IMG/VR virus record: IMGVR_UViG_3300044731_001294
Coordinates: 1 to 24,272 of that record
Direction: 5' to 3' (one strand)
Length of the DNA stretch: 24,272 nucleotides
Origin: a virus
This document shows, in pieces, positions 939 to 22,734 of this stretch. Below the pieces are notes generated by a model. It saw only the letters and a list, made by a program, of their open reading frames with translations, made no database searches and was not told the origin of the DNA. A program made the translations under genes and the position numbers. The first letter of the stretch is position 1. Each line of letters begins with the position of its first letter.

Positions 939-1610
939 TTAATTATAATTTTTAAATCTGCGGAACATATCTAAAGATTCGTTCAGTTTCTCAACAAATT
1001 TTTCCTTTTCTTCCGGGTCTTCAATATTTAACTCGTCTTCCAAATAGTCTTCAATTGGTTGTGATAAATAATCTTCTAATTCATCGATATCATATTCAAA
1101 TTCCTCACCTAATTCATCAAAATCAATTACAACATCCAATGAATCATCATCACAATGTTTACACTCTTCTTCTTCATCATCACTATAGTAAGGATTATAC
1201 ATACTTAAATCTTTATATTCGTCATCCTCGTCATCATTAATACCAAGTGAAATGTATTCATCATCATATCCCGGTGATGGGTATGTATCGTGAAAATATT
1301 CTCGATTAACATCTGACATATCTGGAGTACCTCTAAAATCAACAGTACCATTTTTTAAATCATGTGGTCCGTCACTAATTCTATCGGTTCTATTAATATC
1401 TTCATTGATATTCATATTTGTATAGTTTTTAACAACCCCTTTGTTTGAGACTGTTATTCCATTTTTGTCATTTGCAAAATCTTGAACATATAAAGGTTTT
1501 TGATTAGACCCTTGAGCATATTGTGTTACAAATCCATCATATAATGATTTGTGTTGGTCAAGAATATTATTTTTCTCCGCTTGACTCATTTTAAAAAAGT
1601 ACTGTGCCAT
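939..1610 (-). CDS. Acidic protein with the S-x-x-E-K-x-x-I-L-x-x-H N-terminal motif
   Basis: A 223-residue protein. Its N-terminus, SQAEKNNILDQHKSLYDGF, closely parallels the N-termini of the proteins at 15759-17162 (SEQEKNRILNLH) and 14669-15757 (YEERQRISKLHEH), so it belongs to the same shared-peptide group. The middle is polar. The last 100 residues are very acidic, with DDEDDE and DDEEEE runs and a C-x-x-C (CKHC) pair that is probably not enough for a zinc site. Starts 2 nt after the stop of the DUF4314-like gene, so it is co-transcribed with it. Function unknown; possibly a packaged virion protein. Confidence 0.65.
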   Translation of the reverse strand: MAQYFFKMSQAEKNNILDQHKSLYDGFVTQYAQGSNQKPLYVQDFANDKNGITVSNKGVVKNYTNMNINEDINRTDRISDGPHDLKNGTVDFRGTPDMSDVNREYFHDTYPSPGYDDEYISLGINDDEDDEYKDLSMYNPYYSDDEEEECKHCDDDSLDVVIDFDELGEEFEYDIDELEDYLSQPIEDYLEDELNIEDPEEKEKFVEKLNESLDMFRRFKNYN

Positions 1611-1612
1611 TT

Positions 1613-1915
1613 TTATTTTTTTATTTCTTTTATTATTGCTCTTTTTGTTGTAAAGAACATAAACCCTTCGGACAAATCCTCTGGCTCATCCTCAACAAGT
1701 TTTGCCCATTTATCAACACCATCAATCAAAGCTAATTTTGATCCGTTTTTCCAGTTAACATAATACTGTTTTTGACCAAATACCTCCGAAACAGTCTTTA
1801 CTACACCAGGTGTTCCTCCAGGAATTGGAGAGAATTCATCCTCCATTTTTAAACAGATAACCTTATCACCAGGTTGTAAATCTGCGTTAGTCTCATATTT
1901 TCTTTTACTTGCCAT
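1613..1915 (-). CDS. DUF4314-like small protein
   Basis: A 100-residue protein. Residues 15-75 carry the pattern G-D-K-V-I-C-L-K-M, P-I-P-G-G-T-P-G-V-V, W-K-N-G-S-K-L-A-L-I and G-V-D-K-W. This matches the layout I know for DUF4314 (GDRV..., PIPPGTxGTV, WDNGSxLxLIPGxD), a small SH3-like beta-barrel common in phage and mobile-element genomes, with no established function. It is the first gene of the minus-strand group 1915-638 and has a TATATTTAT element 6 nt upstream of the ATG. The family call comes from motif layout only. Confidence 0.6.
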   Translation of the reverse strand: MASKRKYETNADLQPGDKVICLKMEDEFSPIPGGTPGVVKTVSEVFGQKQYYVNWKNGSKLALIDGVDKWAKLVEDEPEDLSEGFMFFTTKRAIIKEIKK

Positions 1916-1948
1916 ACAATAATAAATATAGCGTAATATTTATTTGTT
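1916..1948. promoter_or_regulatory. Compact divergent promoter region with two TATTTAT elements
   Basis: Only 33 nt separate two divergent start codons. On the minus strand TATATTTAT (complement of 1922-1930) ends 6 nt before the ATG at 1915. On the plus strand TATTTAT (1937-1943) ends 5 nt before the ATG at 1949. If these are -10 elements, both transcripts would start at or within a few nt of their start codons. Confidence 0.45.
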
Positions 1949-2566
1949 ATGAAGATAATAATAACAGAATCACAATATAAAAAAATATTATTTGAATCTA
2001 GATTAAAAAGTCTTGAAAATAAGGTAGACGAGCTTAAAGATTTTTTTAAAAAAGTTTCTAGTGAATCAAAAAAACAAATTGGGTTAGACTTGAGTTTTTT
2101 AACAACTTGGGGTGTAACTATTGCGGGTTTTGTGTCACCAGTTCAACAATATATTAGTGGCTCTTTTCCGGAATTATCAAGTTCAGACTTAGCGTTACTT
2201 TCAACTGGAATAATACTAACATATTATGAGTCAAATAAAGAAATGCTGGGTAAAGTTTTAGAAAAAATAAAAGAAAAAGAACTTATTTTTGAATTTGATA
2301 AAACTCTAGAAGTTTCGGCAAAATTAAAAGATGTTTTTTTTAATTTTATTAATAGCTTGGCAATTCCTGTTTCTAAAATTAGTAATATGTTAGCATATAC
2401 TTTTTTAATACCTTTAATTCCTGATTTATATGAAGTTGTTCAAGGTAATGAGTCTTTAAATATTAAAGAAACTATTTTAAGAATTGTATCTTTTGTTGGT
2501 GTTAGTTTTAGTGGTGTCTTTGTTAAAAGACTAATTCAAGAAATTGTAAAAAGGTTTAAATCTTAA
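1949..2566 (+). CDS. Membrane protein with the ITESQ N-terminal peptide
   Basis: A 205-residue protein. It opens with MKIIITESQYKKILFESR, which includes the shared I-T-E-S-Q motif and an L-F-E at residues 14-16. An amphipathic helical section follows (18-45), then several hydrophobic stretches (about 50-70, 80-95, 125-160 and 178-195), so three or four membrane helices are likely. TATTTAT lies 5 nt before the ATG. The gene is convergent with the one at 2563-2982 and the two share the tetramer TTAA as stop. I recall similar membrane proteins in uncultured marine phage contigs, without a known function. Confidence 0.65.
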   Translation: MKIIITESQYKKILFESRLKSLENKVDELKDFFKKVSSESKKQIGLDLSFLTTWGVTIAGFVSPVQQYISGSFPELSSSDLALLSTGIILTYYESNKEMLGKVLEKIKEKELIFEFDKTLEVSAKLKDVFFNFINSLAIPVSKISNMLAYTFLIPLIPDLYEVVQGNESLNIKETILRIVSFVGVSFSGVFVKRLIQEIVKRFKS

Positions 2567-2982
2567 TAGTTATTTGCCACATCAAAAAATATTTCAAACT
2601 GGACATTATAAATTTCATCCCAATGAAACTTAAATCCATTAACTAAAACACCTCTTAAAGAATTACCAGATTTAATTGTTAAATCTTCATCCACATAAAA
2701 TTTCGCTGCTTTATATACTTTTTCTTGATATTCGGTTATAACATTTATAATATCATTTGGTTCATGTGCACAATCAGGACAATCTAAAACTCCATTTATT
2801 TCTAAAGTAAAAAATAATTCATAAATTTTAAATTTTTCAGTACTACCAATTCTAGTCGCATCACCACCAGTTAATTCAAGTGATACTTTGTTTCCAAATT
2901 CAGATAAAAACCCAGACCTTACTAAAATAGCACGTTTTATTGTTTCAATCTTTGGGTTATATTTTTCTGGTAATCCTGTCAT
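2563..2982 (-). CDS. Hypothetical protein
   Basis: A 139-residue soluble-looking protein with a D-C-P-D-C-A-H segment around residues 67-73. There is no signal peptide or membrane helix, and the size and mixed alpha/beta character suggest a single domain. It begins 4 nt after the stop of the metallopeptidase-like gene (2987-3583), so the two form a pair. The 3' end shares a TTAA with the convergent membrane-protein gene. No family recognised. Confidence 0.65.
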   Translation of the reverse strand: MTGLPEKYNPKIETIKRAILVRSGFLSEFGNKVSLELTGGDATRIGSTEKFKIYELFFTLEINGVLDCPDCAHEPNDIINVITEYQEKVYKAAKFYVDEDLTIKSGNSLRGVLVNGFKFHWDEIYNVQFEIFFDVANNY

Positions 2983-2986
2983 TTAT

Positions 2987-3583
2987 TTATACTTTATTTA
3001 ATATTTTAGACATAACATCTATAGCTTGTTTATCGTCCAATCTATGAACATCTTTATGGGTGTTAAACCATCTTTTTACAACAACATCAAATGGTGTTTT
3101 TGTGATTTTTGAAAGTCTTTTAAACCCAAAAACCTGAGCATCGATTTCGTGTGGTTGTGTGTAGTATTTATATGGGTCTTTTTCTTCTGGACCACTTAAA
3201 TCATAAGTTCCTTTATCTCTTTGATCGATGTGTCTTATTTCGTGTGCAATAACCTCATTTAATTCACCAATTAAATCATAAGTTATTTTTGTTTTATTAC
3301 TTGGGTTATATTCTAAAATAAGTTCAATTATATCATCATCTTTGTAGAAATTACCATCAACTTTAAAGGATTCAACGTTTTCATTTGGTTGTAATACTAA
3401 CTCAACAATAAATTCACTCCCAAAATTATTAAATTCATAAAAATCTTTTTCATCATCAATATAATTTGGTAAATAAAATTCACCATCGTCTTCTTCCTTA
3501 TAAACTTTAATAATATCTCTAACAACGGTTCTAATTATTTCTCTCCTTCTACCATCCTCAAGTAATAATTCTCTATAATTCAT
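2987..3583 (-). CDS. Putative zinc metallopeptidase (HExxH)
   Basis: A 198-residue protein. Residues 113-120 read A-H-E-I-R-H-I-D, an HExxH zinc-binding and catalytic motif inside a predicted helix. About 28 residues later, P-H-E-I-D-A-Q (144-150) supplies a Glu suited to be the third ligand, as in gluzincin-type peptidases. The N-terminus (MNYRELLLEDGRRREII) resembles the start of the protein at 15759-17162 (MNYRGILISEQEKN) and has L-L-E at residues 7-9, so it may be a short variant of the shared peptide. TATTTAT lies 4 nt before the ATG. The substrate is unknown. It could act on virion proteins, host proteins or peptidoglycan peptides; catalytic activity is inferred from the motif only. Confidence 0.55.
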   Translation of the reverse strand: MNYRELLLEDGRRREIIRTVVRDIIKVYKEEDDGEFYLPNYIDDEKDFYEFNNFGSEFIVELVLQPNENVESFKVDGNFYKDDDIIELILEYNPSNKTKITYDLIGELNEVIAHEIRHIDQRDKGTYDLSGPEEKDPYKYYTQPHEIDAQVFGFKRLSKITKTPFDVVVKRWFNTHKDVHRLDDKQAIDVMSKILNKV

Positions 3584-3600
3584 AATAATAAATATTCATC

Positions 3601-3631
3601 TTGACTGTAATTTTAATATTGTCTATTTTTT
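3601..3631 (+). promoter_or_regulatory. Possible host-type promoter for the thioesterase/GMP reductase pair
   Basis: TTG (3601-3603, in TTGAC) is followed 20 nt later by TATTTTTT (3624-3631), a near match to TAnnTTTG. The ATG is at 3648. The T-run makes the -7 match weak. Confidence 0.35.
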
Positions 3632-3647: not shown

Positions 3648-4067
3648 ATGGAATTATTAAATTCACACCCAATTAAAAAATCGGACTTAGGATTCCACGG
3701 TAATCTATTTGGTGGTAAACTACTCGCTTGGATTGATGCTTCGGCCGCTGGTTACGCAATGCAGTTATGTGATACACCAAGAATGGTTACAGTATCAATT
3801 GATAAATGTAACTTTGAAAAACCGGCAAGAGAGGGACAGTTATTAAAAATATATGGTTACCCAACTTTTGTTGGTAATAGTTCAGTTACTTTATATATGG
3901 AAGCTAGGGCTCATAATGTTTATACTGGAAAACAAGCAATTGTTTTAAAAACACATATAAAATTTGTCCACATAGATGAAGAAGGAAACCCAATACCAAT
4001 TGGTGAAAAGGGTAGAAATAGAATTAATAAAATTATTGAAAATAGAAAAAATGAAGAAAATATTTGA
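3648..4067 (+). CDS. Acyl-CoA thioesterase, hotdog fold, YciA-like
   Basis: A 139-residue protein of the size expected for a single hotdog domain. H-G-N-L-F-G-G (17-23) followed by L-A-W-I-D-A-S-A-A (26-34) corresponds to the N-x-x-G-x-x-F-G-G...D signature of the YciA/BFIT acyl-CoA hydrolases, with D30 in the catalytic Asp position. T-V-S-I-D...F-E-K-P-A (48-61) and the late F-V-H-I-D-E-E-G-N-P (105-114) also fit. It would hydrolyse acyl-CoA thioesters in the cytoplasm. The last 17 nt overlap the start of the GMP reductase gene, so translation is probably coupled. An acyl-CoA thioesterase is unusual cargo for a phage; it could alter host lipid metabolism or have a changed substrate. Confidence 0.8.
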   Translation: MELLNSHPIKKSDLGFHGNLFGGKLLAWIDASAAGYAMQLCDTPRMVTVSIDKCNFEKPAREGQLLKIYGYPTFVGNSSVTLYMEARAHNVYTGKQAIVLKTHIKFVHIDEEGNPIPIGEKGRNRINKIIENRKNEENI

Positions 4068-5010
4068 TTTTGACAACATAACGTTACTACCAAATTTTAG
4101 TTATGTTGAAAGCAGGTCTGATTGTGACACAAGTTGTAAGTTTGGTAATCACACATTTAAATTACCAGTTGTTCCGGCTAATATGGAAAGTATAGTTGAT
4201 GTTAAGTTGGCAATAGAATTAGCTAAGAATGGATACTTTTATATTTTACATAGATTTGACATTGATGAGGTTTTATTTGTTGAGACTATGAAAACATTAA
4301 ATTTGGTGTCATCAATTTCTGTTGGTGTAAATGATGATTCTTATGAATTAATTGATAATTTGGTAGCAAAAGATTTAATCCCGGATTTTATTACAATTGA
4401 TATTGCACACGGTCATTGTATTAAGATGAAAAAAATGGTTAAATATATTAAAAATAGAATGTCAGATGTATTTTTAATCGGTGGGAATGTTTGTACTCCG
4501 GATGCTGTGGAAGATTTAACAGAATGGGGTTGTGATGCCATTAAATGTGGTATTGGTGGTGGGTCTGCTTGTACAACATACCACTCAACAGGTTTTGGTA
4601 ATCGTGGTTGGCAGGCTAGCATGATAAAAAAATGTGCTAAAGTTGCAAAAATCCCAATCATTGCCGATGGGTCAATAAAAGAACATTGTGATATTGTTAA
4701 AAGTTTGGTTTTAGGCGCATCAATGGTTATGGTTGGTGGAATGTTAGCTGGATATGAAGAATCACCAGGTAATTTGGTTGAGGAAGGTTCTAAAAAGTAT
4801 AAAGAATTTTGGGGTAGTGCGTCATCGTCACAATCTGGAAAGACTAACAGAGTTGAGGGTATTAAAAAATTAATCCCATATAAAAATAAATCTATTTTTG
4901 ATAAGTTAACAGAGATTGAGGAATCTTTACAAAGTGCAATTTCATATGCTGGTGGAAATCCTAGTGATTTATCTTGTTTAGATACTGTTAAATATGTTAT
5001 AAACAATTAA
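4051..5010 (+). CDS. guaC: GMP reductase (IMPDH/GMPR family)
   Basis: A 319-residue TIM-barrel enzyme that would reduce GMP to IMP with NADPH and release ammonia. Visible signatures: V-P-A-N-M-E-S near residue 41, D-I-A-H-G-H (117-122), G-G-N-V (144-147), the catalytic loop G-I-G-G-G-S-A-C-T-T with Cys174 (167-176), T-G-F-G-N-R-G-W-Q (180-188) typical of the GuaC type found in Firmicutes, I-A-D-G-S-I, and G-G-M-L-A-G-Y-E-E-S-P-G. The C-terminal Q-S-A-I-S-Y-A-G-G also fits GMPR rather than IMPDH, and there is no CBS domain. I chose the ATG at 4051 because MKKIFDFDNITLLP aligns with the family start; an upstream in-frame ATG at 3976 only adds residues read out of frame from the thioesterase gene. 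Probably adjusts purine pools during infection. The stop shares TTAA with the convergent gene at 5007. Confidence 0.88.
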   Translation: MKKIFDFDNITLLPNFSYVESRSDCDTSCKFGNHTFKLPVVPANMESIVDVKLAIELAKNGYFYILHRFDIDEVLFVETMKTLNLVSSISVGVNDDSYELIDNLVAKDLIPDFITIDIAHGHCIKMKKMVKYIKNRMSDVFLIGGNVCTPDAVEDLTEWGCDAIKCGIGGGSACTTYHSTGFGNRGWQASMIKKCAKVAKIPIIADGSIKEHCDIVKSLVLGASMVMVGGMLAGYEESPGNLVEEGSKKYKEFWGSASSSQSGKTNRVEGIKKLIPYKNKSIFDKLTEIEESLQSAISYAGGNPSDLSCLDTVKYVINN

Positions 5011-6065
5011 GCGCTATAAGTGGCATTTGTAACTCCTAGTGATTGTGATGAATAACATTTGTTATCATCAGGTGGTAATTGTTGTACATAATAATTTGTA
5101 CCTTGATCACCAATATTAAATAGTATTGTACCTTCTCTTGTAAAACCTTTACTTTCTAATAATGTTATTAAATCTGGATGTAAATTAACACAAGAAGAAC
5201 TCATATTTAAATTTTTAGTATATGTCAAATCTTCTTGATTTACTCTTGGGTCTTCACTTTTAGATAATTTTTTTCTAGCTAAATTTAAAAGTGACCATCT
5301 TTTACCATATTTTGGGTCTGATTCCTTTTTTGTTTTTCCAGGTATCCCATGTGTTGCAAAACCAGTAGTGTTTCCAAATGTATCACCTAATTGATATGAA
5401 TAATTATAATTTATAACTTTATTTTCTGGTCCAGAATAATCTGTTGTATATTTATTAGTTGTTGTAGAACCTAATTTATATATCCCAGCATTTGCATCTT
5501 TTAAAATTTGATTTAATCTATCTAATGTTTTAATTGTTTCTCCGTTAAAAGTTACAACATTATTATTTAGATATTCTTGTCTTTTATCATCGGTTAATGT
5601 ATTTAAGTACTTTAGAGTTTCATCGGTTGGTTGTTGCCCAGCTCCAGAAATATATGGGTCTTTAGCAACAAAATTCCAATTTTGTTTTTTTGTTGTTTGG
5701 TCAAATGTTGTAGTATAAAAATAAACTAAATTATTTTGTGGATCCGTAACCATTAATTTTAAATCTTTTTGAAATTCTGGTCTAATACCAATAAAACTTA
5801 ACTCACACGATATTTTTTCTGGAATCCCCTGACTTTTAAATTGAGTTGACCCTTCATTAATTAATTTTGTAATGTAATCAAAAACACTTGATTCTCCGGC
5901 AAGTGGTGTATATGTGTCAATTATTTGTTGGTAATCAATCACTTGATTTTTTACTTTATCTGTAAAAGGGGCACAACCAACTGTATTTGTCTGTTCAATT
6001 AACAAACCATAAAGTTTTTTTATGTGATTTCTTTCACTTTCAGATATTACAAATCTTTTAGACAT
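5007..6065 (-). CDS. Protein with the SESERNxIKKLY N-terminal peptide, possible packaged protein
   Basis: A 352-residue protein. The N-terminus MSKRFVISESERNHIKKLYG is a clear variant of the shared peptide, and L-I-E at 22-24 is followed by Q-T, matching the [L/I]-x-E|Q-T junctions of the proteins at 7133 and 14669. The rest is polar, with mixed alpha/beta character and Tyr, Asn and Thr richness. A motif G-K-R-W-S-L-L-N-L-A-R lies around residues 254-264, and a few Cys (C31, and C292 in S-S-S-C-V-N) are present. No family recognised. It follows the gene at 6067-7128 with 1 nt between them, so they are co-transcribed. Confidence 0.65.
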   Translation of the reverse strand: MSKRFVISESERNHIKKLYGLLIEQTNTVGCAPFTDKVKNQVIDYQQIIDTYTPLAGESSVFDYITKLINEGSTQFKSQGIPEKISCELSFIGIRPEFQKDLKLMVTDPQNNLVYFYTTTFDQTTKKQNWNFVAKDPYISGAGQQPTDETLKYLNTLTDDKRQEYLNNNVVTFNGETIKTLDRLNQILKDANAGIYKLGSTTTNKYTTDYSGPENKVINYNYSYQLGDTFGNTTGFATHGIPGKTKKESDPKYGKRWSLLNLARKKLSKSEDPRVNQEDLTYTKNLNMSSSCVNLHPDLITLLESKGFTREGTILFNIGDQGTNYYVQQLPPDDNKCYSSQSLGVTNATYSA

Positions 6066-7132: not shown

Positions 7133-7744
7133 TTACCAACTTCTTGAAGATTTAAGACCTAATTTTTTTCTATACCTAGAAACATTACAAGACCAATACC
7201 CCGCTGTTGTTCTATCTTTTTTCTGATCACATTTGTGTCTTGCTCTAAAAGATTTAGCACGAGATTTACTTGCGTTTCGTACTCTTAAATTAGGATCTCC
7301 AAAAGTAACTTTTTTCACACCACCACCTGGAGTTTTAACATACACAGCAAATTTCTTTGGGCCACCAGGAGTTCTAAAAGGACTTCCTAGTCTAACATTT
7401 TTTCCTCTATGTTTTGCTTCCATTAAATTTTCTTGAACTTCAAATGGTGCGTCCAACAAAACAACTTTACCATTGTCTAATGTAACAGATTCCCCCAAGT
7501 TTGATTCTACTAACCAAATATCGTCTTCATCTTCAAGATTTACATATCCAGAATAATATAAATCTCTAACTTCATTTATTAAATTAAAATAAGAATCGGA
7601 ATAAATTCTAAAAACATTTTCATTTAAAGGAATTGAGTTTTCCAAATGATATTTTAATTCTTCTGAAATTTCAGTTTGTTCTTTTAAAATCATTTTAGGT
7701 TTATATTCTTCTAATAAAACCTTTCTTACAATATTTTCTAACAT
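7133..7744 (-). CDS. Phage structural-type protein with basic Cys-containing C-terminus
   Basis: A 203-residue protein. The N-terminus (MLENIVRKVLLEEYKPKMILKEQTE) has the helical shared-peptide character and an I-L-K-E|Q-T junction at residues 19-24. The C-terminal 95 residues are basic and highly patterned: G-S-P-F-R-T-P-G-G-P-K-K-F-A-V-Y-V-K, F-G-D-P-N-L-R-V, S-F-R-A-R-H-K-C, and D-R-T-T-A-G-Y-W-S-C-N. From memory, this R-A-R-H-x-C...A-G-Y-W-S-C domain recurs in T4-like and other marine myovirus proteins linked to head assembly, though I cannot verify the annotation. The two Cys and the His could bind a metal. It is first in the minus-strand group 7744-5007. TATTTAT lies 26 nt upstream, further than usual. 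Confidence 0.65.
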   Translation of the reverse strand: MLENIVRKVLLEEYKPKMILKEQTEISEELKYHLENSIPLNENVFRIYSDSYFNLINEVRDLYYSGYVNLEDEDDIWLVESNLGESVTLDNGKVVLLDAPFEVQENLMEAKHRGKNVRLGSPFRTPGGPKKFAVYVKTPGGGVKKVTFGDPNLRVRNASKSRAKSFRARHKCDQKKDRTTAGYWSCNVSRYRKKLGLKSSRSW

Positions 7745-7822
7745 TATGATATATTTAGATATTTATTACTATAAATACATTGCAACTTATTTAAATAAAA
7801 CATATTTATAATAAAAAATCAT

Positions 7823-8380
7823 ATGAAAAGAGTTAGATTAACCGAAAGTGATCTTATAAAAGTTATAAAAAGAGTCCTTAAAGAAAATCAAATGCAACAA
7901 CCACAAGTTGCTGGTGAAACAAAAGAAAATAAAAAGAAAGAACCACCAAAACCAAGATGTGTTCCGGAAAATATGATCCCACTTGAAGAAATTGTTGGTA
8001 ATGCTGATGATTTTGTAAAATATTCTCCAGGAATTAAAAAAAGAAGAATGGGTGTTAATTCAATGGTTGATACATTAGGAATTTTAAATAATATTCGTTG
8101 GGCAAACGATATTAAGGATGGTGGGACACATTTGGCTTATGAAATGATGAATCATTTAAATCGTTTTAGAAATAAAAACTATCACGATGAAACAACAGGT
8201 GAATGTCATAAAGCTATGGATAAAATAGCTGAACTATACAAAGAAAATGAACACGGTACTGAATTAGTTAAGGATATTGAGAGGGTTTTAGCTCTTCAAA
8301 CAAAAGAAGATGAATTTACACCTTCAGCAAGAGCAAAAGAATATTTAAAACAATGTATTAATCTTGCAAAAGGACAATAA
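7823..8380 (+). CDS. Protein with the LTESDL...IKRVLKE N-terminal peptide
   Basis: A 185-residue protein. MKRVRLTESDLIKVIKRVLK followed by E-N is an archetypal copy of the shared peptide, ending in L-K-E at 19-21. A low-complexity linker rich in Q, K, E and P follows (23-45). The mature part is mostly helical and charged, with C46, C123 and C178 and a central H-x-x-R-F-R-N-K-N-Y-H segment. TATTTAT ends 13 nt before the ATG. Two hairpins follow the stop. No enzymatic motif recognised. In the packaging hypothesis the peptide and linker would be removed and the helical domain left in the head. Confidence 0.7.
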   Translation: MKRVRLTESDLIKVIKRVLKENQMQQPQVAGETKENKKKEPPKPRCVPENMIPLEEIVGNADDFVKYSPGIKKRRMGVNSMVDTLGILNNIRWANDIKDGGTHLAYEMMNHLNRFRNKNYHDETTGECHKAMDKIAELYKENEHGTELVKDIERVLALQTKEDEFTPSARAKEYLKQCINLAKGQ

Positions 8381-8959: not shown

Positions 8960-9406
8960 ATGAAGTTATTACCCATTTTAAGTGAAATAATAGACAAAAA
9001 AGCCCTTATTTCGACTTTAAAATCAATGGATTATAGTGAAAAAGAGGCTAAAAATGAGTTAAAATTGCACCTAGATAGGGTAAAAAACCTTCCAGAAACG
9101 TTAACTGGGTACCGAATTTTGGTTGTAAATGACAAAAAAGACATCAATTTAGATGAAATTGGGTCACATTTTAGTGAAAATAAGGTAGAATTGTTGTCAA
9201 ATCACTCATTTTGTACCGGTTGTGGTGAAAAATACTACCTAATTACAGCAAAAATACCCAAAAAAGAGGTAGATTTACAAGAAATGCTTAAAAATAACAT
9301 ACTTTACCCTAATGAATTTGAGATTACAGTAAAAAATAAGGGAAAAAACGTAAAAATTGTTAAAATTGAGGAAATTAATACCGAAAATGACTATTTTTTC
9401 TTATAA
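8960..9406 (+). CDS. Hypothetical protein with CTGC pair
   Basis: A 148-residue protein. The N-terminus MKLLPILSEIIDKKALI has an L-S-E at 7-9 and could be a short relative of the shared peptide. The rest is mixed alpha/beta and Lys-rich, with a single C-x-x-C (F-C-T-G-C-G-E-K) around residue 85. TATTTAT ends 4 nt before the ATG. The 3' end overlaps the convergent membrane-protein gene by 16 nt. Function unknown. Confidence 0.65.
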   Translation: MKLLPILSEIIDKKALISTLKSMDYSEKEAKNELKLHLDRVKNLPETLTGYRILVVNDKKDINLDEIGSHFSENKVELLSNHSFCTGCGEKYYLITAKIPKKEVDLQEMLKNNILYPNEFEITVKNKGKNVKIVKIEEINTENDYFFL

Positions 9407-10822: not shown

Positions 10823-10828
10823 AATAAT

Positions 10829-12508: not shown

Positions 12509-12695
12509 TTTGTTCTTCTCTATACTGCAAATATAAAGAAAAAATTACTAAAAAGTTAACAAAAACACATAAAAAAGTTTCAAGTAAATAATGCCAATTT
12601 GTTTGTGTCATAGATACGTGGGTTCCAAACCACATAAAAGAACCGTATTTATTCATTAATTGAATAATTAAATACTTAAAAAACTTAACCATCAT
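12474..12695 (-). CDS. Small membrane protein
   Basis: A 73-residue protein with one clear transmembrane helix (about 37-58, LLETFLCVFVNFLVIFSLYL), a weakly hydrophobic N-terminus and a charged, Glu/Lys-rich tail. Its ATG overlaps the stop of the lysozyme-like gene (ATGA at 12692-12695), and its 3' end overlaps the next gene by 35 nt. Being coupled to a lysozyme-like gene, it could be a lysis helper, but nothing specific shows this. Confidence 0.5.
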   Translation of the reverse strand: MMVKFFKYLIIQLMNKYGSFMWFGTHVSMTQTNWHYLLETFLCVFVNFLVIFSLYLQYREEQNEKLQKTDTTK

Positions 12696-13444
12696 ATTTC
12701 CGGGTTTCTAATTAGATTTGCAACTTTCTCACTTCTAATTCTTGAGTTTGCTCTATCTTTAATTGCAAGATCAATTAATTCTTTATTTGACATACCTTTT
12801 TTTACACCATTTTCCAAGCTTTTAGCAAAAGTTTGAAAAAATCCGGGGCCATTCCAACTTGCATATGACATATGAATTAAAAGTCCTTTGTTTTTTAATA
12901 TTTTATTTTTTGTTTTATTGTCTTTAACATAATTTTCCATATTTCTATCAAAATAATGTTTCATAATTTTTGCCGCCAAGTTTTCTAACCTTTCTTCTAA
13001 TGCACCACCTCTATATCCCCATTTCCATTCTTTACAAAAATTTTTTATACCATCTTTTTTCTTTTCATTATCAATTATTCTAAAAAATTTTTTACCATTT
13101 TCAGTAGATTCAATATTACCATTAAACCTATCTAAACCAAACATAGTTTCTGTTGATTTACCCATTCCTTTAGTTGGGTGTCCACATACAGGATTCCAAT
13201 AACCACCTTCTAATTTATCAATAACTTTTCTAGTAATCTTCATCCAATTACTATCAACATCGCCTTCTAATTCATCATCAGACTCTTCTTCTTTATTTTT
13301 TAAAACATCACCTAATTTATCTTCAATTTTGTCGACATTAATTTTTTTATTTTTTAATTTTTCTACATCAACACCTAAAATTTTGGCTATTAATGAAAGA
13401 ATAAAATCTTTTAACTCTGATTCTGTAAGTAAAACTTTTTTCAT
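12692..13444 (-). CDS. Lysozyme-like protein with the shared N-terminal peptide
   Basis: The start is placed at the ATG at 13444 rather than 13474, because TATATTTAT occupies the stretch between them and MKKVLLTESELKDFI is the shared N-terminal peptide. The 250-residue product has an acidic linker to about residue 65. It then has a domain with K-L-E-G-G-Y-W-N-P (about 79-87) and T-E-T-M-F-G-L-D (about 99-106), reminiscent of the E-G-G-Y...G-x-T-x-x-G-I core of GH108-type phage lysozymes. Late in the protein, Y-A-S-W-N-G-P-G-F-F-Q (about 195-205) resembles the N-x-G-P-x-x-A-x-x-x-Q segment of their C-terminal domain. The Glu in L-E-G-G-Y would be catalytic. With the N-terminal peptide this would be a virion-associated peptidoglycan hydrolase rather than a free endolysin. 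The family call is tentative. Confidence 0.5.
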   Translation of the reverse strand: MKKVLLTESELKDFILSLIAKILGVDVEKLKNKKINVDKIEDKLGDVLKNKEEESDDELEGDVDSNWMKITRKVIDKLEGGYWNPVCGHPTKGMGKSTETMFGLDRFNGNIESTENGKKFFRIIDNEKKKDGIKNFCKEWKWGYRGGALEERLENLAAKIMKHYFDRNMENYVKDNKTKNKILKNKGLLIHMSYASWNGPGFFQTFAKSLENGVKKGMSNKELIDLAIKDRANSRIRSEKVANLIRNPEI

Positions 13445-13460
13445 ATATAATAAATATATC

Positions 13461-14212: not shown

Positions 14213-14638
14213 ATGGCAAAAGTAAATTCAAACAGTACTGTGACTGTAAACTACACAGGTAAATTAGAAGATGGTTCAGTATTTGATTCTTCATTAAATG
14301 AAGGTAGGGAACCATTAAAAGCAACTTTAGGTCAAGGGCAATTAATTCCTGGTTTTGAAAATGGTTTAATTGATATGGAAGTTGGTGATAAAAGAACAAT
14401 CGAAATCCCACATACTGAAGCATATGGTGATGTAAATTCTGAGTTAATTGTTGTTGTACCTAAAACACAAGTCCCAGAAGGTGTACAGCCTGGTGCAAAA
14501 TTACAAACAATGGGTCCTATGGGTCCTCAAGTTGTTGAAGTTGTTGAAGTTAGGGAAGAAGATGTTGTTATTGATGCAAACCATCCATTGGCAGGTAAAA
14601 ATTTAATTTTTGAACTAGAGGTTTTGGAAGTTGAGTAA
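14213..14638 (+). CDS. FKBP-type peptidyl-prolyl isomerase, SlyD-like
   Basis: A 141-residue cytoplasmic protein with the SlyD domain order. The FKBP part starts V-T-V-N-Y-T-G-K-L-E-D-G-S-V-F-D-S-S (10-27), followed by L-G-Q-G-Q-L-I-P-G-F-E-N-G-L (39-52), M-E-V-G-D-K (55-60) and A-Y-G (70-72). The insert-in-flap chaperone domain follows (about 75-122), then the returning FKBP strand with H-P-L-A-G-K-N-L (124-131). There is no His-rich metal-binding tail. It would catalyse prolyl cis-trans isomerisation and hold unfolded chains. In a phage it may help fold virion proteins or a host partner. Stand-alone unit with its own terminator. Confidence 0.88.
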   Translation: MAKVNSNSTVTVNYTGKLEDGSVFDSSLNEGREPLKATLGQGQLIPGFENGLIDMEVGDKRTIEIPHTEAYGDVNSELIVVVPKTQVPEGVQPGAKLQTMGPMGPQVVEVVEVREEDVVIDANHPLAGKNLIFELEVLEVE

Positions 14639-14668: not shown

Positions 14669-15757
14669 TTAAATATTATCCCATTTAAATCTTTCAAAAG
14701 TACTAATCCTTTTAAAATCTTTACAACTTATTGTAGTTCCATTAGATAGTTTTTTTGGTCTATCAAAGAACGCTTTATACGCTTCAATATTAGTATCGTA
14801 TCTACCGTCTTTATTTTTCTTTGACGCTGTTTGATATGATTTATAATATTTAATACATTCTTCTTTATGTTTTGTTTTTTCTTCTTGTACTTTAACATCT
14901 TTATCAGCAATTTCTTGGTCAATTTGTTCTAAACTTTTTAAGTTTTTAATATCAGTATCAACTTTTTGTATGTTTGTCTCGTTTGTCATTTCTTGACAAG
15001 TATCAAGTACTTTTTGTAATGTATCTCTTAAACCTTCAAAATCATCTAAGAGACCTGCAATTTTCATTTGTGTACCTTTTTTTTCAATTTTTTGTTTTAT
15101 TAAATTTAAACCATCTGAAATTTTTTGTATATTTTCTGGTTCACAAGCGTTTCCGGCATCAATTGATGTTATATCTTGTTTTGCCTTAGCTAACATATCT
15201 TTATCCTCTTTTGTTAACATCCAAAAACCTTCTATTTCTGTAATATATTTAATTGCTTCAGCTTTTAAAGGTTCAATTTTTTCTTTTACTTTAGTTTTGT
15301 CTAAATTAGATTGACCACTTGGTTGATTAGTAGATTGACCACTTGGTTGATTAGTAGATTGACCACTTGGTTGATTAGTAGATTGACCACTTGATTGATT
15401 TAAATTAGTTCCATATGGATATTTTGTCCAAATATAAGGTGAACCTTTATCATCACTATACGCTCTTTCATATTGACCATTATCGTTCATAACAACGGCA
15501 GTTCCATCAGGTATTAAAATGTAAGTAACACCATCTGCTGTTGTAACTTTATATCCAACTTCATATTGTGAATTATTTAATGGTGTAATATCTCCTTTTG
15601 GAAAATTTCTATATTTTTTAGCAACATCTTCAAAGTATTTTTTTAATTCTTCTTGGGTTTGTTCTAAAATTAAAGAAAAAGTTTTTCTAACTGAATGTTC
15701 GTGTAATTTAGAAATTCTTTGTCTTTCTTCATAACTTGTTTGAAATAAATTTTTCAT
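14669..15757 (-). CDS. Protein with shared N-terminal peptide, 8-residue repeats and coiled region
   Basis: A 362-residue protein. Residues 1-32 are a shared-peptide variant (Y-E-E-R-Q-R-I-S-K-L-H-E-H) ending in I-L-E at 30-32 followed by Q-T. A small beta-type domain follows (about 50-117), then four copies of an 8-residue S-G-Q-S-T-N-Q-P repeat (119-150). A long charged helical region (150-305) is likely coiled-coil. The Cys-containing C-terminus has F-D-R-P-K-K-L-S-N-G-T. The layout (signal, domain, repeat linker, helical rod) suits a structural or packaged protein. It starts 1 nt after the stop of the 467-residue protein, so the two are made together. Confidence 0.7.
   Translation of the reverse strand: MKNLFQTSYEERQRISKLHEHSVRKTFSLILEQTQEELKKYFEDVAKKYRNFPKGDITPLNNSQYEVGYKVTTADGVTYILIPDGTAVVMNDNGQYERAYSDDKGSPYIWTKYPYGTNLNQSSGQSTNQPSGQSTNQPSGQSTNQPSGQSNLDKTKVKEKIEPLKAEAIKYITEIEGFWMLTKEDKDMLAKAKQDITSIDAGNACEPENIQKISDGLNLIKQKIEKKGTQMKIAGLLDDFEGLRDTLQKVLDTCQEMTNETNIQKVDTDIKNLKSLEQIDQEIADKDVKVQEEKTKHKEECIKYYKSYQTASKKNKDGRYDTNIEAYKAFFDRPKKLSNGTTISCKDFKRISTFERFKWDNI
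15309..15403. repeat. 24-bp tandem repeat, about 4 copies, in frame
   Basis: The unit ATTGACCACTTGGTTGATTA plus GTAG recurs with starts of the TTGACC core at 15311, 15335, 15359 and 15383. The last copy is degenerate (ACTTGATTG). On the coding strand it encodes S-G-Q-S-T-N-Q-P. The near-identity of the copies at DNA level suggests recent slippage expansion. Confidence 0.9.
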
Positions 15758-15758
15758 A

Positions 15759-17162
15759 TTAGTCTTTTGGTTTTATTGGTTCTTTAGGTTTAATAAAAGG
15801 TGGTAAAAATTCTTCTTTGTCACCCTCTGGTAATTGCATACCCGGTAAATCTTTAATTGGTATCTCAATCTTTCTACCTGGATTTTTTGGGTCCGGTAAT
15901 GGTATTTTAATATCCGGTAAATTCTTAACAGATTTAAATATACAATTAAATAACTCAACAAAAATTTGTTGTGCGTTACTAATATCACCTTTAGTTAGTA
16001 ATGCTTGTAATACCGCATTTACAATATCCATAAGACACTGTTGAACTTGATTTCCTGGTAAAATGCTCATCATTGAACTTAAACAAGAAGTTGGTAATTT
16101 TATTTCAATTTGATAATTTTTAAGAATAGTAACAACACATTCTCTAATATCACCAATAGGTATTTTAACATCCGGTATTTTAATATTTGGATTATTTGGG
16201 CCACTTGGACCTTTTGGTTTTGGAATATTATCCTGTATAACTTCACCCCTTGTAATTTGATTTTGATTACAAACTATTTTGTATAATGTACCATTACCGG
16301 TTGGGTTTTCACACCACATTGTTCCATCAATAAAGTAAACACAAGGACCACTTTTATCATAAAAACATCCACATGTTTTAAAATCGTCTCTTTTTACTAT
16401 CTTGTTAGTAACTCTCCAAGAATGTTCTAAACAAGGAAATTTAGTCATCCAATCACCTTCTTTTATTGGTGTATTACCACCATCTTGACCTCCGCCGTCA
16501 CCTTCTTTTCCTTTACCAGTTTTTGGGTCCCACTTACCATCACAAATAGCATTTCTAAGGTTAATATTTGTAATACCTTTTGTTCTTGCTTCATCATAAC
16601 TACAAGGAGTTGTTCCCATACAGCCAGAATCAATCCATTTCTTTTGTACTTCTTTAAAATTTAACCCTAATTCGGCAACAACATTATATGGTGTTTTATT
16701 TTTACAATTTGCACCACCTGGTTTTTCACCGTCAGTTTGACCACCTTGTTTACAAGGTGTCTTATCACTACATTCATGTTCTTTTTTATAATTATGATCT
16801 TGGTCAGCATATGATTTTGCTTGACATTTTCCATTTAGACAAACACAATTATATGACCTTACCTGTCTAATTTCTTTAGTTATGGCATCAACTTCAACCA
16901 TAACCCTACCTTGTTCAGTTTCCTGACTCCAGTAATAGTCTCTACCTTTTCCGCCACCATTTGGTACGTGAACAGCATAACCATTAACAATATCATTTGC
17001 TGGTAAATCAACGTGATTTCCAGCCCATCTAACACATACCGGAAAAACTTGTGGATGGTCTTGCGCTTCCTTTATTAATGATGATTTTTGTTTTCTACTT
17101 GTGTGTAAATTTAATATTCGATTTTTTTCTTGTTCAGAAATAAGTATTCCTCTATAATTCAT
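15759..17162 (-). CDS. Large Cys-rich protein with the SEQEKNRILNLH N-terminal peptide
   Basis: A 467-residue protein. Residues 1-32 are a clear shared peptide (L-I-S-E-Q-E-K-N-R-I-L-N-L-H) ending L-I-K-E|A-Q. Residues about 40-110 form a domain with W-A-G-N-H-V-D-L-P, Y-Y-W-S-Q-E-T-E-Q and C-V-C-L-N-G-K-C. A Gly/Lys-rich Cys-containing middle has several C-x(3-8)-C spacings. A Pro-rich stretch (K-I-P-D-V-K-I-P-I-G-D) leads into a helical domain with paired Cys (about 338-415), and the end is Pro/Lys/Ile repeats. The many Cys could form disulfides once outside the cytoplasm. A TATATTTAT element is 15 nt before the ATG. No known family; the best guess is a virion or ejected protein. Confidence 0.7.
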   Translation of the reverse strand: MNYRGILISEQEKNRILNLHTSRKQKSSLIKEAQDHPQVFPVCVRWAGNHVDLPANDIVNGYAVHVPNGGGKGRDYYWSQETEQGRVMVEVDAITKEIRQVRSYNCVCLNGKCQAKSYADQDHNYKKEHECSDKTPCKQGGQTDGEKPGGANCKNKTPYNVVAELGLNFKEVQKKWIDSGCMGTTPCSYDEARTKGITNINLRNAICDGKWDPKTGKGKEGDGGGQDGGNTPIKEGDWMTKFPCLEHSWRVTNKIVKRDDFKTCGCFYDKSGPCVYFIDGTMWCENPTGNGTLYKIVCNQNQITRGEVIQDNIPKPKGPSGPNNPNIKIPDVKIPIGDIRECVVTILKNYQIEIKLPTSCLSSMMSILPGNQVQQCLMDIVNAVLQALLTKGDISNAQQIFVELFNCIFKSVKNLPDIKIPLPDPKNPGRKIEIPIKDLPGMQLPEGDKEEFLPPFIKPKEPIKPKD

Positions 17163-17223
17163 ATTAAGATTTTTAATATAAATATATCATAGATTGTAAA
17201 AAAAATTAAATTATTTCTTTTTT

Positions 17224-17766
17224 TTAGTTAAAATCTGGATTTCTTTGATCTCTACCTTTTGTTAGTCTTCTTTTAAATGTTTTATCGGCATTACGTAGTT
17301 TAAACGCATATTCTACCATACTGTTTCCAACATTTTCTGTCATAGATTCAAGTCTATCTAATAAATTTTCTTTTGATAGCAACTCCTCACCCATATTTAC
17401 CATCATCCTTATTTTTTCTTGGTATGACTCAAGTTTTCTGCGCATAATTTCTCCAGACTTAATAACATCTTTATCTGTAAAATCTTTAAATACAATTTTC
17501 ATAACATCATTAATTTCAGTAATTAAATCAACAGCCGCCATTAAATTTTCTCGTAAATCAATATATTCGATATTATCAGAATTTAACATAGTTTTTATCC
17601 CTTTAAACACCTGTACTAAATCATTCAACGTATCGACTAATAATCTCATTGATTTTCCACCATGTTGATTCATAACATAAAAGTCGTCATAACCAGCTGC
17701 TTCCTCGTTAATTCTTTCAATCAATTTTTTTAATTGAGATTCTGTTACTACTATTTTTCTTCCCAT
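17224..17766 (-). CDS. Helical protein with the VTESQLKKLIERINEE N-terminal peptide
   Basis: A 180-residue, almost entirely helical protein. MGRKIVVTESQLKKLIERIN followed by E-E is the shared peptide, with I-N-E at 19-21. The remainder has long amphipathic helices with Leu/Ile/Met heptads (about 40-155), probably coiled-coil, and a basic end (K-R-R-L-T-K-G-R-D-Q-R-N). It begins 3 nt before the end of the broken small frame at 17770-17883. No enzymatic motif. A head-internal or DNA-associated helical protein is plausible. Confidence 0.65.
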   Translation of the reverse strand: MGRKIVVTESQLKKLIERINEEAAGYDDFYVMNQHGGKSMRLLVDTLNDLVQVFKGIKTMLNSDNIEYIDLRENLMAAVDLITEINDVMKIVFKDFTDKDVIKSGEIMRRKLESYQEKIRMMVNMGEELLSKENLLDRLESMTENVGNSMVEYAFKLRNADKTFKRRLTKGRDQRNPDFN

Positions 17767-18723: not shown

Positions 18724-19275
18724 TTATTTAACCCCCGGATATTTTCGGGGTTTAATTTTATTGTCAGTTTTAACCAAACTTCTTTTTGGTATTTGTTCAC
18801 AATAAATCATAAGCCACTCAATGTCAGATTGATCTTGCTTTGTCTTATCTAGGTCTTTATAATAAATTGAATTTGTGTTAAATTTTTGACTACTTATAAT
18901 TTTATTTTTATCACAAAAATATATTACATCATTACTTGTTCTTTTATGATAGTTGTCATCCAAGTCTTGCGCAACTACGGTTTTTTCATTATTAATATCA
19001 TAACCATATTTTATAGTATCATAAAGTTGACCACTTGTTTTTCCGTCTGTATAATACAATTTTCTTTCCCAAGTTTCTTTAGGGTCTTCTTTTTTTAATG
19101 TTTTTACAATATAGTCTTCACCATATCTTTTTCTACGTAAAAATCTAGGTAAACCAGGTTTTGATTCAGCACTAGTCTCTAATTCAGTACTAGTCTCTAA
19201 TTCTGTGGTCTCTTTTAGTACTCTTTTAACAATACGAGTTAAGTCTGATTCGGTCAGTTTTATAATTTTTTTCAT
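18724..19275 (-). CDS. Protein with the LTESDLTRIVKRVLKE N-terminal peptide
   Basis: A 183-residue protein. MKKIIKLTESDLTRIVKRVL followed by K-E is a near-ideal shared peptide, ending L-K-E at 20-22. A T-E-L-E-T-S duplication follows as an acidic linker. The domain from about residue 42 (G-L-P-R-F-L-R-R-K-R-Y-G) has a basic start, then a Tyr/Asp/Lys-rich alpha/beta region with two Cys. No known family. The upstream region has AATATTTTAG close to the ATG instead of the exact TATTTAT. The neighbour at 19293-19493 begins with nearly the same 22 residues. Confidence 0.7.
   Translation of the reverse strand: MKKIIKLTESDLTRIVKRVLKETTELETSTELETSAESKPGLPRFLRRKRYGEDYIVKTLKKEDPKETWERKLYYTDGKTSGQLYDTIKYGYDINNEKTVVAQDLDDNYHKRTSNDVIYFCDKNKIISSQKFNTNSIYYKDLDKTKQDQSDIEWLMIYCEQIPKRSLVKTDNKIKPRKYPGVK
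18729..18755 (+). terminator. Terminator-like hairpin inside the convergent gene's 3' end
   Basis: AACCCC and GGGGTT pair around an interior GGA/TTC stem with one bulged C, followed by a T-rich TTTAATTTTATT tract. It follows the plus-strand stop at 18720 but also encodes the last residues of the minus-strand gene. Confidence 0.55.
19171..19206. repeat. 18-bp tandem duplication, in frame
   Basis: ACTAGTCTCTAATTCAGT (19171-19188) is repeated at 19189-19206 with one mismatch. It encodes two copies of T-E-L-E-T-S just after the predicted end of the shared N-terminal peptide. Confidence 0.85.
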
Positions 19276-19292: not shown

Positions 19293-19493
19293 TTAAGAAT
19301 GTAAATTATATTCCATATTATCTCCGGGCATCTCTAATAAAAGAGAACCACCCTCAATTCTCCATGTACCTTTAGTACCATCTTTCAATCCACTTTTAAA
19401 TTCATCAACAGTAAATCTTTCTCGATCTTCATTAATTATTCTTTTAACAATTCTTGTTAAATCTCTTTCTGTTAATTTTATTGCTTTTCTCAT
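19293..19493 (-). CDS. Small protein with the LTERDLTRIVKRIINE N-terminal peptide
   Basis: A 66-residue protein. Residues 1-22 (MRKAIKLTERDLTRIVKRII plus N-E) differ little from the start of the gene downstream (18724-19275), ending I-N-E. The remaining 44 residues look like a small beta domain (F-T-V-D-E-F-K-S-G, G-T-W-R-I-E-G-G, L-L-L-E-M-P-G). The signal peptide is therefore a third of the protein. TATTTATAAATA sits 14 nt upstream of the ATG. It shows that the peptide is attached even to very small domains. Confidence 0.7.
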   Translation of the reverse strand: MRKAIKLTERDLTRIVKRIINEDRERFTVDEFKSGLKDGTKGTWRIEGGSLLLEMPGDNMEYNLHS

Positions 19494-19532
19494 AATATTT
19501 TTTATTTATAAATATTACAAAAAAATAAAAAA

Positions 19533-20279: not shown

Positions 20280-20333
20280 TATCTTTATTTGATTACAAAG
20301 ATAATAAAATTATTTTAATTTTTAAAAAAATAA

Positions 20334-20984
20334 TTACAAACCGATTGATTTTTTTCTTTCCCAGGCCTTATATAATCTGTCCTTATATCTCTTTTCAAGA
20401 ATTGGTTTTAATTCCCAATACATATCCATAATTTTATTTCTACTTTTTTCGACATAAACCACACCATAATCCGGATCCTCTTCAGTTTCAATCTCATCTC
20501 CTTTTCTAGCTATAATAAACTCGTGAAGAAGATCCCCAATAACATAACTGGAAAACTCTTCAAACTTGTTTACCGGTGGTGTTGATAAAATATAATGTGT
20601 TAATTCTCTATCAAGAAATTCAAAATCATCCTGTGTTAATCTTCGTTTAAGAGAATTGGATAACTTTTCGTACTGGGATTCTGTTAATTGTTTTTTATGT
20701 TTATTATAAAAATCAACTAATTCTTGATAAAAATGGTAATTAACAAATACTTTAATTTGATTTCTAAAAGTAACATAATCAAAATCAACATCTTTTTCTT
20801 CTAATCTTCCAGCAATTATATCACCAACAAACATAGCCACCGCGTGAATAAAACCATCTTTATTTAATGTTTTAGCGGTACGTATAAAAAGGTCCTCATA
20901 TTCATTAAATATATCTTCAATCTCACCGATTCTTCGGTAAATATGTTGTAATTTTTTTTGATTTTCTGTTATTATTATTTTCAT
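20334..20984 (-). CDS. Two-module protein with N-terminal and internal TESQ motifs
   Basis: A 216-residue protein. Module 1 (1-98) starts MKIIITENQKKLQHIY and contains N-K-D-G-F-I-H-A-V-A (41-50). Module 2 (99-216) starts with an internal T-E-S-Q-Y-E-K-L (101-108). It then matches the first module of the next protein upstream (20988-21887): R-R-L-T-Q-D-D-F-E-F-L-D against R-R-M-T-D-K-D-F-Q-L-L-D, L-L-H-E-F-I against S-L-H-E-F-I, and L-E-K-R-Y-K-D-R-L-Y against L-N-E-K-Y-H-D-D-L-Y. It appears to be a fusion of two originally separate shared-peptide proteins. It starts 3 nt after the preceding stop, so co-transcribed. Function unknown. Confidence 0.7.
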   Translation of the reverse strand: MKIIITENQKKLQHIYRRIGEIEDIFNEYEDLFIRTAKTLNKDGFIHAVAMFVGDIIAGRLEEKDVDFDYVTFRNQIKVFVNYHFYQELVDFYNKHKKQLTESQYEKLSNSLKRRLTQDDFEFLDRELTHYILSTPPVNKFEEFSSYVIGDLLHEFIIARKGDEIETEEDPDYGVVYVEKSRNKIMDMYWELKPILEKRYKDRLYKAWERKKSIGL

Positions 20985-20987
20985 TAT

Positions 20988-21887: not shown

Positions 21888-21898
21888 ATAAATAAATA

Positions 21899-22381
21899 TT
21901 AGTCCTCCTCGGTATAATAAAGGTCAATAACTTTTCCTATGTCAAGCCCTTTAAGACCAATATGGTTAAGGATATAATTTTGAAAATCCTCTTCCGAAAT
22001 TAAACCATCGTATTCAGCAATAAAAAGTTTTTCTTTATGTTGATCTTGATATAAATAATATTTATTATTTATCATAAATAAAAACATTGGTCCAAAACGA
22101 TTTAATAATGTGTTAATTCCAACAACTGATATATAATCAAATGGACTTTCAAAAAAACCTCTTGGTACATCAAATCGTGATTGAACCATTTTAACTTTAT
22201 TCACAGGATCAAATCCGTTTTGAACAAGAATTGAATAAACGGTTTCTTTTCCAATTATATTTACCAATCTATCAAATGAACCAACGGCCTTCATTGCAGC
22301 ATCAAATCCGGAACGATTAATAAGTTTCATTAAACTATTTTTTAATGATTCATTTTGTGATTCGGTAATAATGATTTTCAT
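21899..22381 (-). CDS. Single-module protein with the ITESQ N-terminal peptide
   Basis: A 160-residue protein: MKIIITESQNESLKNSLMKL, then R-S-G-F-D-A-A-M-K-A-V-G (23-34), a segment shared with its two neighbours. After that comes a repeated-looking pair of hydrophobic helices and a Tyr-rich beta segment (N-N-K-Y-Y-L-Y-Q-D-Q), ending acidic. No [L/I]-x-E close to the start, so it may keep its N-terminus. TATTTAT lies 6 nt before the ATG. It is probably the simplest, ancestral-like form of the module set. Confidence 0.65.
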   Translation of the reverse strand: MKIIITESQNESLKNSLMKLINRSGFDAAMKAVGSFDRLVNIIGKETVYSILVQNGFDPVNKVKMVQSRFDVPRGFFESPFDYISVVGINTLLNRFGPMFLFMINNKYYLYQDQHKEKLFIAEYDGLISEEDFQNYILNHIGLKGLDIGKVIDLYYTEED

Positions 22382-22404
22382 ATAACAATAAATACCTTAT
22401 AAAA

Positions 22405-22433
22405 TAAAAAACCCCATTCTTATTAGAATGGGG
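22405..22433 (-). terminator. Intrinsic terminator of the small Cys-rich gene
   Basis: CCCCATTCT (22412-22420) and AGAATGGGG (22425-22433) form a perfect 9-bp stem with a 4-nt loop. Read on the minus strand it is followed by TTTTTTATTTT. Confidence 0.9.
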
Positions 22434-22455
22434 GAATAATCTAAATTTACATATG

Positions 22456-22734
22456 TTAACTTAATTTTTTTCCAACACAACATTTTTTACATGTGTCTTC
22501 ATCAGAAAAAGGACTATTACCGGCAGTTCTTATTTTACAACTACCAGATTTAGAATCATAGTAATAACCAATGTTTTGAGTATACATCTTTCCAGATTCT
22601 AATTTTGGTGGTACAACATTACATAAATTTTTACCATCAGATGATTTACAACCGGACATATTACTATCCTCTTTTATAATTTTTTTTATTAACCTAATTA
22701 AATCACTCTCGGTTAATCTTACTGTTTTTTTCAT
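22456..22734 (-). CDS. Small Cys-rich protein with shared N-terminal peptide, Kunitz-like tail
   Basis: A 92-residue protein. Residues 1-22 are the shared peptide (L-T-E-S-D-L-I-R-L-I-K-K-I-I-K-E). The remaining 70 contain six Cys at 29, 38, 66, 82, 85 and 86. The segment I-G-Y-Y-Y-D-S-K-S-G-S-C (55-66) followed by a final C-x-x-C-C recalls the Y-Y-Y-D/N-x-x-x-x-x-C part of Kunitz/BPTI domains. The spacings C29-x8-C38 and C82-x3-C86 equal the Kunitz first and last spacings, but the middle is different and one conserved Cys is displaced. This is a weak resemblance; a novel disulfide mini-protein is equally possible. Ends in a strong terminator. Confidence 0.6.
   Translation of the reverse strand: MKKTVRLTESDLIRLIKKIIKEDSNMSGCKSSDGKNLCNVVPPKLESGKMYTQNIGYYYDSKSGSCKIRTAGNSPFSDEDTCKKCCVGKKLS

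Follow-up and report, generated by a model that had tools for sequence, protein, structure and literature searches.

Tagged genes in the window

Virus record IMGVR_UViG_3300044731_001294 of IMG/VR was analysed from position 1 to 24,272, and this whole stretch of DNA is referred to as the window. Of its 42 called genes, 13 begin with one of a set of short related peptides, recognised by profiles of three classes built mainly from relatives, and a 14th begins with a short version. These peptides, here called tags, and their probable role as removable signals for packaging into the phage head are the subject of this work.

The tag is strictly N-terminal. When the profiles were run against all proteins of the window and three relatives, a check proposed with the original prediction, matches concentrated at N-termini (109 of 1179, against 8 of 3198 internal stretches of 60 amino acids; Fisher p ~1e-53). 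In the relatives, the core lies no more than 10 residues from the N-terminus in 217 of 251 occurrences of class A or B and in 61 of 64 of class C. The mature parts of the 13 tagged window proteins fall into 13 separate families by BLASTP. The original prediction described one N-terminal peptide shared by about fifteen unrelated proteins. All the start sites and peptides that it listed are present, and both the N-terminal position and the unrelatedness of the mature parts have stood, but the one peptide has become three related classes and a short form, and the idea that the cargo set uses a single signal is replaced by several tag classes.

Class A has the pattern MKKI[IV]RLTESDLxRIVKRVI.E (core [RK]LTESDLxRIVKRVI.E). 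It is found on the plus strand at 7823..7885 (MKRVRLTESDLIKVIKRVLKE|N, ending in L-K-E|N with the site at residue 21; profile A 32.1 bits), the orthologs of this protein carrying A or B tags. On the minus strand there are class A tags at 19210..19275 (MKKIIKLTESDLTRIVKRVLKE|T, L-K-E|T, site at 22; 44.0 bits), 19428..19493 (MRKAIKLTERDLTRIVKRIINE|D, I-N-E|D, site at 22; 32.7 bits) and 22669..22734 (MKKTVRLTESDLIRLIKKIIKE|D, I-K-E|D, site at 22; 35.9 bits), the last on a Cys-rich mini-protein, and a class A-type start opens a lysozyme-like protein at 13379..13444 (MKKVLLTESELKDFILSLIAKI; 10.0 bits).

Class B begins MKIIITESQ... (core IITESQ). Its members are at 1949..1996 on the plus strand (MKIIITESQYKKILFE|S, L-F-E|S, site at 16; profile B 15.8 bits) and at 17704..17766 on the minus strand (MGRKIVVTESQLKKLIERINE|E, I-N-E|E, site at 21; 20.7 bits), with class B-type starts, also on the minus strand, at 20922..20984 (MKIIITENQKKLQHIYRRIGE; 8.9 bits) and 22316..22381 (MKIIITESQNESLKNSLMKLIN; 16.2 bits).

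Class C reads MKKFIITEEEKxRILxMH... and continues into a variable linker (core [IL][TS]E.EK.RI..[LM][HY]). All its members here are on the minus strand: 5994..6065 (MSKRFVISESERNHIKKLYGLLIE|Q, L-I-E|Q, site at 24; profile C 30.1 bits), 17067..17162 (MNYRGILISEQEKNRILNLHTSRKQKSSLIKE|A, I-K-E|A, site at 32; 28.9 bits), 15662..15757 (MKNLFQTSYEERQRISKLHEHSVRKTFSLILE|Q, I-L-E|Q, site at 32; assigned from 6.0 bits together with its sequence) and a marginal, class C-like start at 1551..1610 (MAQYFFKMSQAEKNNILDQH; 6.1 bits only), which orthologs in the relatives G002 and G003 resemble. The short form, at 7679..7744 on the minus strand, was read from the sequence as MLENIVRKVLLE|EYKPKMILKE|Q, with candidate sites at 12 and 22; profile A gives 12.4 bits for its G003 ortholog (MRILENIIKRVIKE).

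Most of the listed peptides had been said to end in [L/I]-x-E. This is so, as described, for the proteins starting at 7823, 1949, 6065, 7744, 15757, 17162, 19275, 19493 and 22734, and the I-N-E|E of 17766 can be added, giving 10 of the 14 listed proteins. Those at 13444 and 22381 lack a distal site, 20984 has only a doubtful I-G-E, and 1610 has no closing site. The inner L-T-E|S or I-T-E|S of the tag also fits [L/I]-x-E, so that a second, inner cut is possible.

The closing glutamate as a boundary

The end of the tag was analysed in a class A set of 148 proteins whose mature parts are non-redundant. Relative to the core, residue +16 is Glu in 92%, +14 is I, L or V and +15 is free. The motif [LIV]xE stands at this fixed place in 135 of the 148; among the 13 exceptions, eight can be read as having a tag extended by one helix turn (LTESDLHRIVKESVKRIL-R-E and similar), with [IL]-x-E again at its end, and one as having the motif displaced by a single residue (KIIE|QAAG). 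Information drops from 3.8 bits at the closing Glu to 1.3 and then to ~0.5 immediately after it, and in an alignment of 110 tagged proteins the only columns above 90% are M1, E9 and E22. In class C, [LIV]xE is present in 32 of 37 proteins, compared with 36% of untagged proteins; the site floats over 11 residues and the next residue is Gln in 19 of the 32.

These data bear on an alternative in which the tag is never cleaved but is a docking helix that fixes proteins to some late assembly, be it core, portal, neck, tail or a membrane patch, its terminal Glu acting as a helix cap. Such a helix would suit the amphipathic nature of the tag and the equal conservation of E9 and E22, and cleavage is itself deduced from sequence. 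A site which floats over 11 residues beside a Gln fits poorly with helix geometry, however, and readily with a protease site, and the motif is retained where the tag has four extra residues. Furthermore, conservation stops at the Glu, and the same motif recurs at the expected processing site of the capsid protein (see later in the text). The docking helix is therefore considered unlikely.

Distribution, prohead protease and capsid protein

No close DNA relative of the window was found in the phage collection, but hundreds of IMG/VR contigs carry a class A start or the conserved neighbour protein at 7133-7744. In three contigs, of 322, 296 and 294 kb, gene calling gave 365, 383 and 389 genes, and 30, 36 and 30 of these carry a tag. 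Among 84,980 bacterial and archaeal species, represented by one genome each, a class A start occurs in only four contigs, all from metagenome-assembled genomes, which indicates that the tag is essentially a phage feature; one of the four, L290, also encodes what reads as a large-terminase protein. The tag is widespread in uncultured T4-like phages, that is, those with a gp23-type capsid protein. A search of cultured phages with the 22-residue class A peptide gave no match and no cultured phage with that tag, and a full-text search of a literature library found no paper describing the peptide.

Phage T4 uses the protease gp21 to cut head proteins after Glu, and propeptides known as capsid-targeting sequences (CTS) direct proteins into its head (PMC9026906). 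The original prediction called for a gp21-like protease, of family S77 (PF03420), and this is present in all nine tagged contigs above 200 kb. It was found in 17 of 22 large tagged contigs, the same 17 that encode gp23, and in 18 of 48 contigs of a second set at E <= 0.001 (17 above the family cut-off), one contig being common to both sets. The S77 proteins of the 17 contigs score above the PF03420 cut-off, align with T4 gp21 and keep the LNHP and SSRG motifs with the catalytic His and Ser. Where T4 gp23 has FLTE|A, the capsid proteins of these phages have HLINE|A, FLINE|A or close variants.

In LR756508, an uncultured phage of 484 kb, the S77 gene (L294 4499-6223) encodes 574 amino acids and reads as intein-interrupted after the catalytic LDHPD. 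A similar break, at GEPGC, is seen in G003 in a ClpB-like gene (152616-152906). Near gp23, a protein whose C-terminus resembles a tag (NESLEKLVKKIIREIVQD and similar) is encoded in G002 (127606-128337), G003 (180498-180950) and G005 (71666-72313), and that of G002 has a tag-like stretch at its N-terminus as well. As the C-terminus of T4 Alt is also processed (PMC9026906), the C-terminal stretches may be propeptides.

The tagged proteins and the exchange of tags

Mature domains that are homologous may have a class A tag in one phage but a B or C tag in another. A and B replace each other in the family of the 7823 protein and in the EDAYGSVEETDF family, and the G003 ortholog of the class B protein at 17766 has a class A tag ending in KIIE|QAAG. 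A and C replace each other in a pair of proteins with 61-62% identity over ~190 residues, while in the lysozyme-like family (12692) the window protein opens with an A-type start and the L200 protein with a class C-like one that has YLHE|A. Such swapping is not expected if the shared start is a relic left on rapidly diverging paralogs, or recombination products, of a single ancestral gene, and nor is the retention of E22. Each contig does have one paralogous set, of 5 to 12 mostly class B members, as this explanation would have it, but the mature parts otherwise belong to 23 to 26 families per contig and to 13 out of 13 in the window. Common descent of this kind is very improbable.

Most of the 110 tagged proteins match nothing in Pfam or PHROG. 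The strong matches are mostly to wall-active proteins: LysM, PG_binding_1, phage lysozymes, M23 peptidase, the YkuD and Tlde1 transpeptidase folds, GH19 chitinase, OmpA and several endolysin families. An endolysin homolog without a tag is encoded separately in G003. For the tagged proteins of the window, Pfam and PHROGs gave no function, the only match being phrog_7595, itself of unknown function. PADLOC matches to tagged proteins are few and weak.

Two cargoes named in the original prediction, a lysozyme-like protein and a Cys-rich mini-protein, keep a weak likeness to known folds. The lysozyme-like protein (12692-13444) folded poorly as a single sequence but with four homologs reached a predicted local distance difference test (pLDDT) score of 75.5. 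Its best fold match is T4 lysozyme, a weak one at E 0.65, and two receptor structures were also listed, which we take to be T4-lysozyme fusions; the model points weakly to a T4-lysozyme fold. The mini-protein (22456-22734) has a Kunitz-like pattern, YYYDSKSGSC...DTCKKCC, and a weak match to the Kunitz-type inhibitor 2m01 (E 0.46), so that it is possibly a tagged protease inhibitor.

Since the mature domains that can be recognised are mostly ones which bind the cell wall or act on it, the tag could instead send proteins to the host envelope, or to another compartment of the infected cell. The tag is charged, however, and has no hydrophobic signal-peptide core, and ordinary signal peptides are found on other genes of the window (120 and 9675-11422), so export has its own route. 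Nor does export explain an S77-type site. Virion-delivered lysozymes, moreover, are known in other phages. Envelope targeting thus appears improbable.

The upstream TATTTAT motif and the timing of expression

Of 96 tagged genes, 65 have the sequence TATTTAT in the 30 bases upstream, but only about a fifth of other genes do. With the annotated Flavobacterium phage immuto as a guide to late and early homologs, 26 of the 34 late ones were seen to have it no further than 60 bases away, as against 5 of the 26 homologs of replication or nucleotide-metabolism genes. No tagged homologs of replication, sheath, tube, baseplate, portal or terminase proteins were found. TATTTAT is a putative late promoter element. 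In the window it is located on the plus strand upstream of the genes at 7823 (7803..7809) and 1949 (1937..1943), and on the minus strand upstream of those at 13444 (13450..13456), 17162 (17178..17184), 19493 (19508..19514) and 22381 (22388..22394). Its distance from the ATG falls into two groups, of 4-6 and of 13-17 bases (e.g. window 1937-1943, 13450-13456 and 23816-23822). If it is the -10 element of a late promoter, the short spacing would give leaderless messages.

With so common a motif just upstream, the conserved start might be merely the translation of a DNA or RNA element, such as a late promoter, a ribosome-binding signal or a translation enhancer. This explanation was rejected because synonymous codons vary freely at invariant tag residues, six Ser codons and five Leu codons being used, for example, which places the constraint on the protein. 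Untagged late genes, moreover, have the same upstream motif. An element acting at the level of nucleic acid is scarcely credible.

A probable capsid-targeting propeptide

In T4, the CTS of the internal proteins IPI, IPII and IPIII, and also of Alt, is a short N-terminal propeptide on unrelated mature proteins which ends in [L/I]-x-E and is removed by gp21. MKTYQEFIAE|A is common to IPII and IPIII; for packaging, the first 10 residues are enough (PMC9026906). The tagged phages have the same architecture, an S77 protease with the same catalytic motifs and a gp23-type capsid protein with the same kind of site. We consider it likely, on comparative sequence evidence, that the tag is a capsid-targeting propeptide equivalent in function to the T4 CTS, with several classes and about ten times as many proteins. 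The tagged proteins would be made late, together with the head proteins, as the upstream motif suggests. By analogy with T4, the amphipathic tag would then dock each protein in the prohead core, perhaps via a gp22-like scaffold. The S77 protease is predicted to cut behind the closing [L/I]-x-E of the tag, and is expected to do likewise in the major capsid protein. The unrelated mature protein would be freed inside the head and, if T4 is a guide, retained with the DNA and ejected with it at infection, where several could act on the cell wall.

A number of observations weigh against this interpretation. The class A peptide, when inspected beside IPI-III, has no sequence similarity to MKTYQEFIAE; the resemblance is one of architecture and cleavage site, which argues that the tag works like the T4 CTS without being of the same sequence family. 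The head genes, including that for S77, are absent from the window, a 24-kb fragment, and the protease is known from relatives. A minority of tagged proteins has no closing site: 1610, 13444 and 22381 in the window and, in the relatives, a class B subfamily ending in YLDNQDF. TATTTAT precedes 6 of 13 tagged and 10 of 29 other genes in the window, which is no clear enrichment; we put this down to the region being largely late and its genes lying in operons. Finally, some tagged proteins could be components of the core rather than cargo. Overall, the original proposal of capsid targeting and cleavage is supported in part. It came through all the computational tests set for it, with about 4 of the 14 listed proteins left without a distal site, while presence in virions, cleavage and ejection are predictions.

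The YLDNQDF proteins form tandem arrays of small paralogs, starting MK[YF]LITES[QK]xDxxIFxYLDNQDF and lacking the closing Glu, in G005 (1186-3547 and 285715-293080), G002 (32037-34179) and L054. By their sequences, the arrays are a distinct user of a class B-like start.

Comparison with other phages

The tags differ from the T4 CTS in having ~22 residues rather than 10, three or more classes per genome and a possible inner [L/I]-x-E, and there are ~30 tagged genes per contig as against a few in T4. Giant phages phiKZ, 201phi2-1 and SPN3US likewise have a Glu-specific prohead protease and N-terminal propeptides on inner head proteins; at least 19 head proteins are cleaved in phiKZ and 201phi2-1 (PMC10052503), and SPN3US gp53 and gp54 have identical N-termini but have otherwise diverged (PMC5694885). 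Their propeptides are mostly longer than 100 residues, however, and are not one interchangeable tag, and SPN3US cuts at A-x-E.

The gp23, gp20, terminase and S77 proteins are of a lineage related to that of the Far-T4 phages, Rhodothermus phage RM378 and immuto. By tblastn the capsid protein is 41% identical to that of immuto and 36% to that of RM378 over the aligned pieces. The terms 'internal protein' and 'prohead' are absent from the Far-T4 paper (PMC4360716). Immuto, a cultured relative, differs in the N-termini that its proteins share near the head genes: several carry F[DN]LKKFLVENKLTxNSxxLKE, others MKKSQLRxIIKEEL, and its capsid protein has IVSE|A at the corresponding place. In LR756508, the 54 genes surrounding S77 and gp23 include 17 with starts of the type KLRxIIREEIxxVLxE, of which 11 end in [LIV]xE, and the capsid site is LLKE|A. 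Thus, the principle looks lineage-wide, with the letters rewritten. What is new in comparison with the T4 CTS is the scale, the several interchangeable classes in one genome and the lineage-specific rewriting.

It is somewhat more probable than its opposite that these peptides amount to a general protein-delivery system. Each genome would have dozens of exchangeable cargoes and several interchangeable classes of removable tag, the tag alone would predict much of the head-packaged, injected proteome, and separate lineages (the class A/B/C group, immuto and LR756508) would have rewritten the tag while keeping its [L/I]-x-E end. If so, sequence alone picks out, among hundreds of unknowns in these abundant phages, the genes whose products are carried in the head and probably delivered as infection begins, and a large set of unknown proteins becomes a list of candidate injected effectors. 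The principle of the T4 internal proteins would be extended from a handful of cargoes to dozens, and the proposal is directly testable in immuto.

Neighbouring genes and minor observations

Beside gp23 of LR756508, six neighbouring proteins, several of them related, are encoded at L294 25715-31591; most of them open with a very short M[RK][LF]K..L..E sequence and have a YRGT-like motif. No support was found for an identity as ADP-ribosyltransferases of these YRGT-containing proteins and of a tagged L293 protein.

Three consecutive secreted proteins with signal peptides are encoded at 9675-11422 of the window. The C-terminal region of one of them reads like a gliding-motility or type IX secretion domain, which points to a Bacteroidota host. 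Metabolic or chaperone genes at 3648-5010 and 14213-14638 include those for a 4HBT thioesterase and an FKBP-type isomerase and, by reading, a GMP-reductase or IMP-dehydrogenase-like gene. The proteins encoded at 2987-3583, 8960-9406 and 22834-23811 have very short [L/I]-x-E starts, MNYRELLLE|D, MKLLPILSE|I and MKRMGLFE|N, which resemble the MAKINELLRE|S of T4 gp24, and these proteins may belong to the same tag system.

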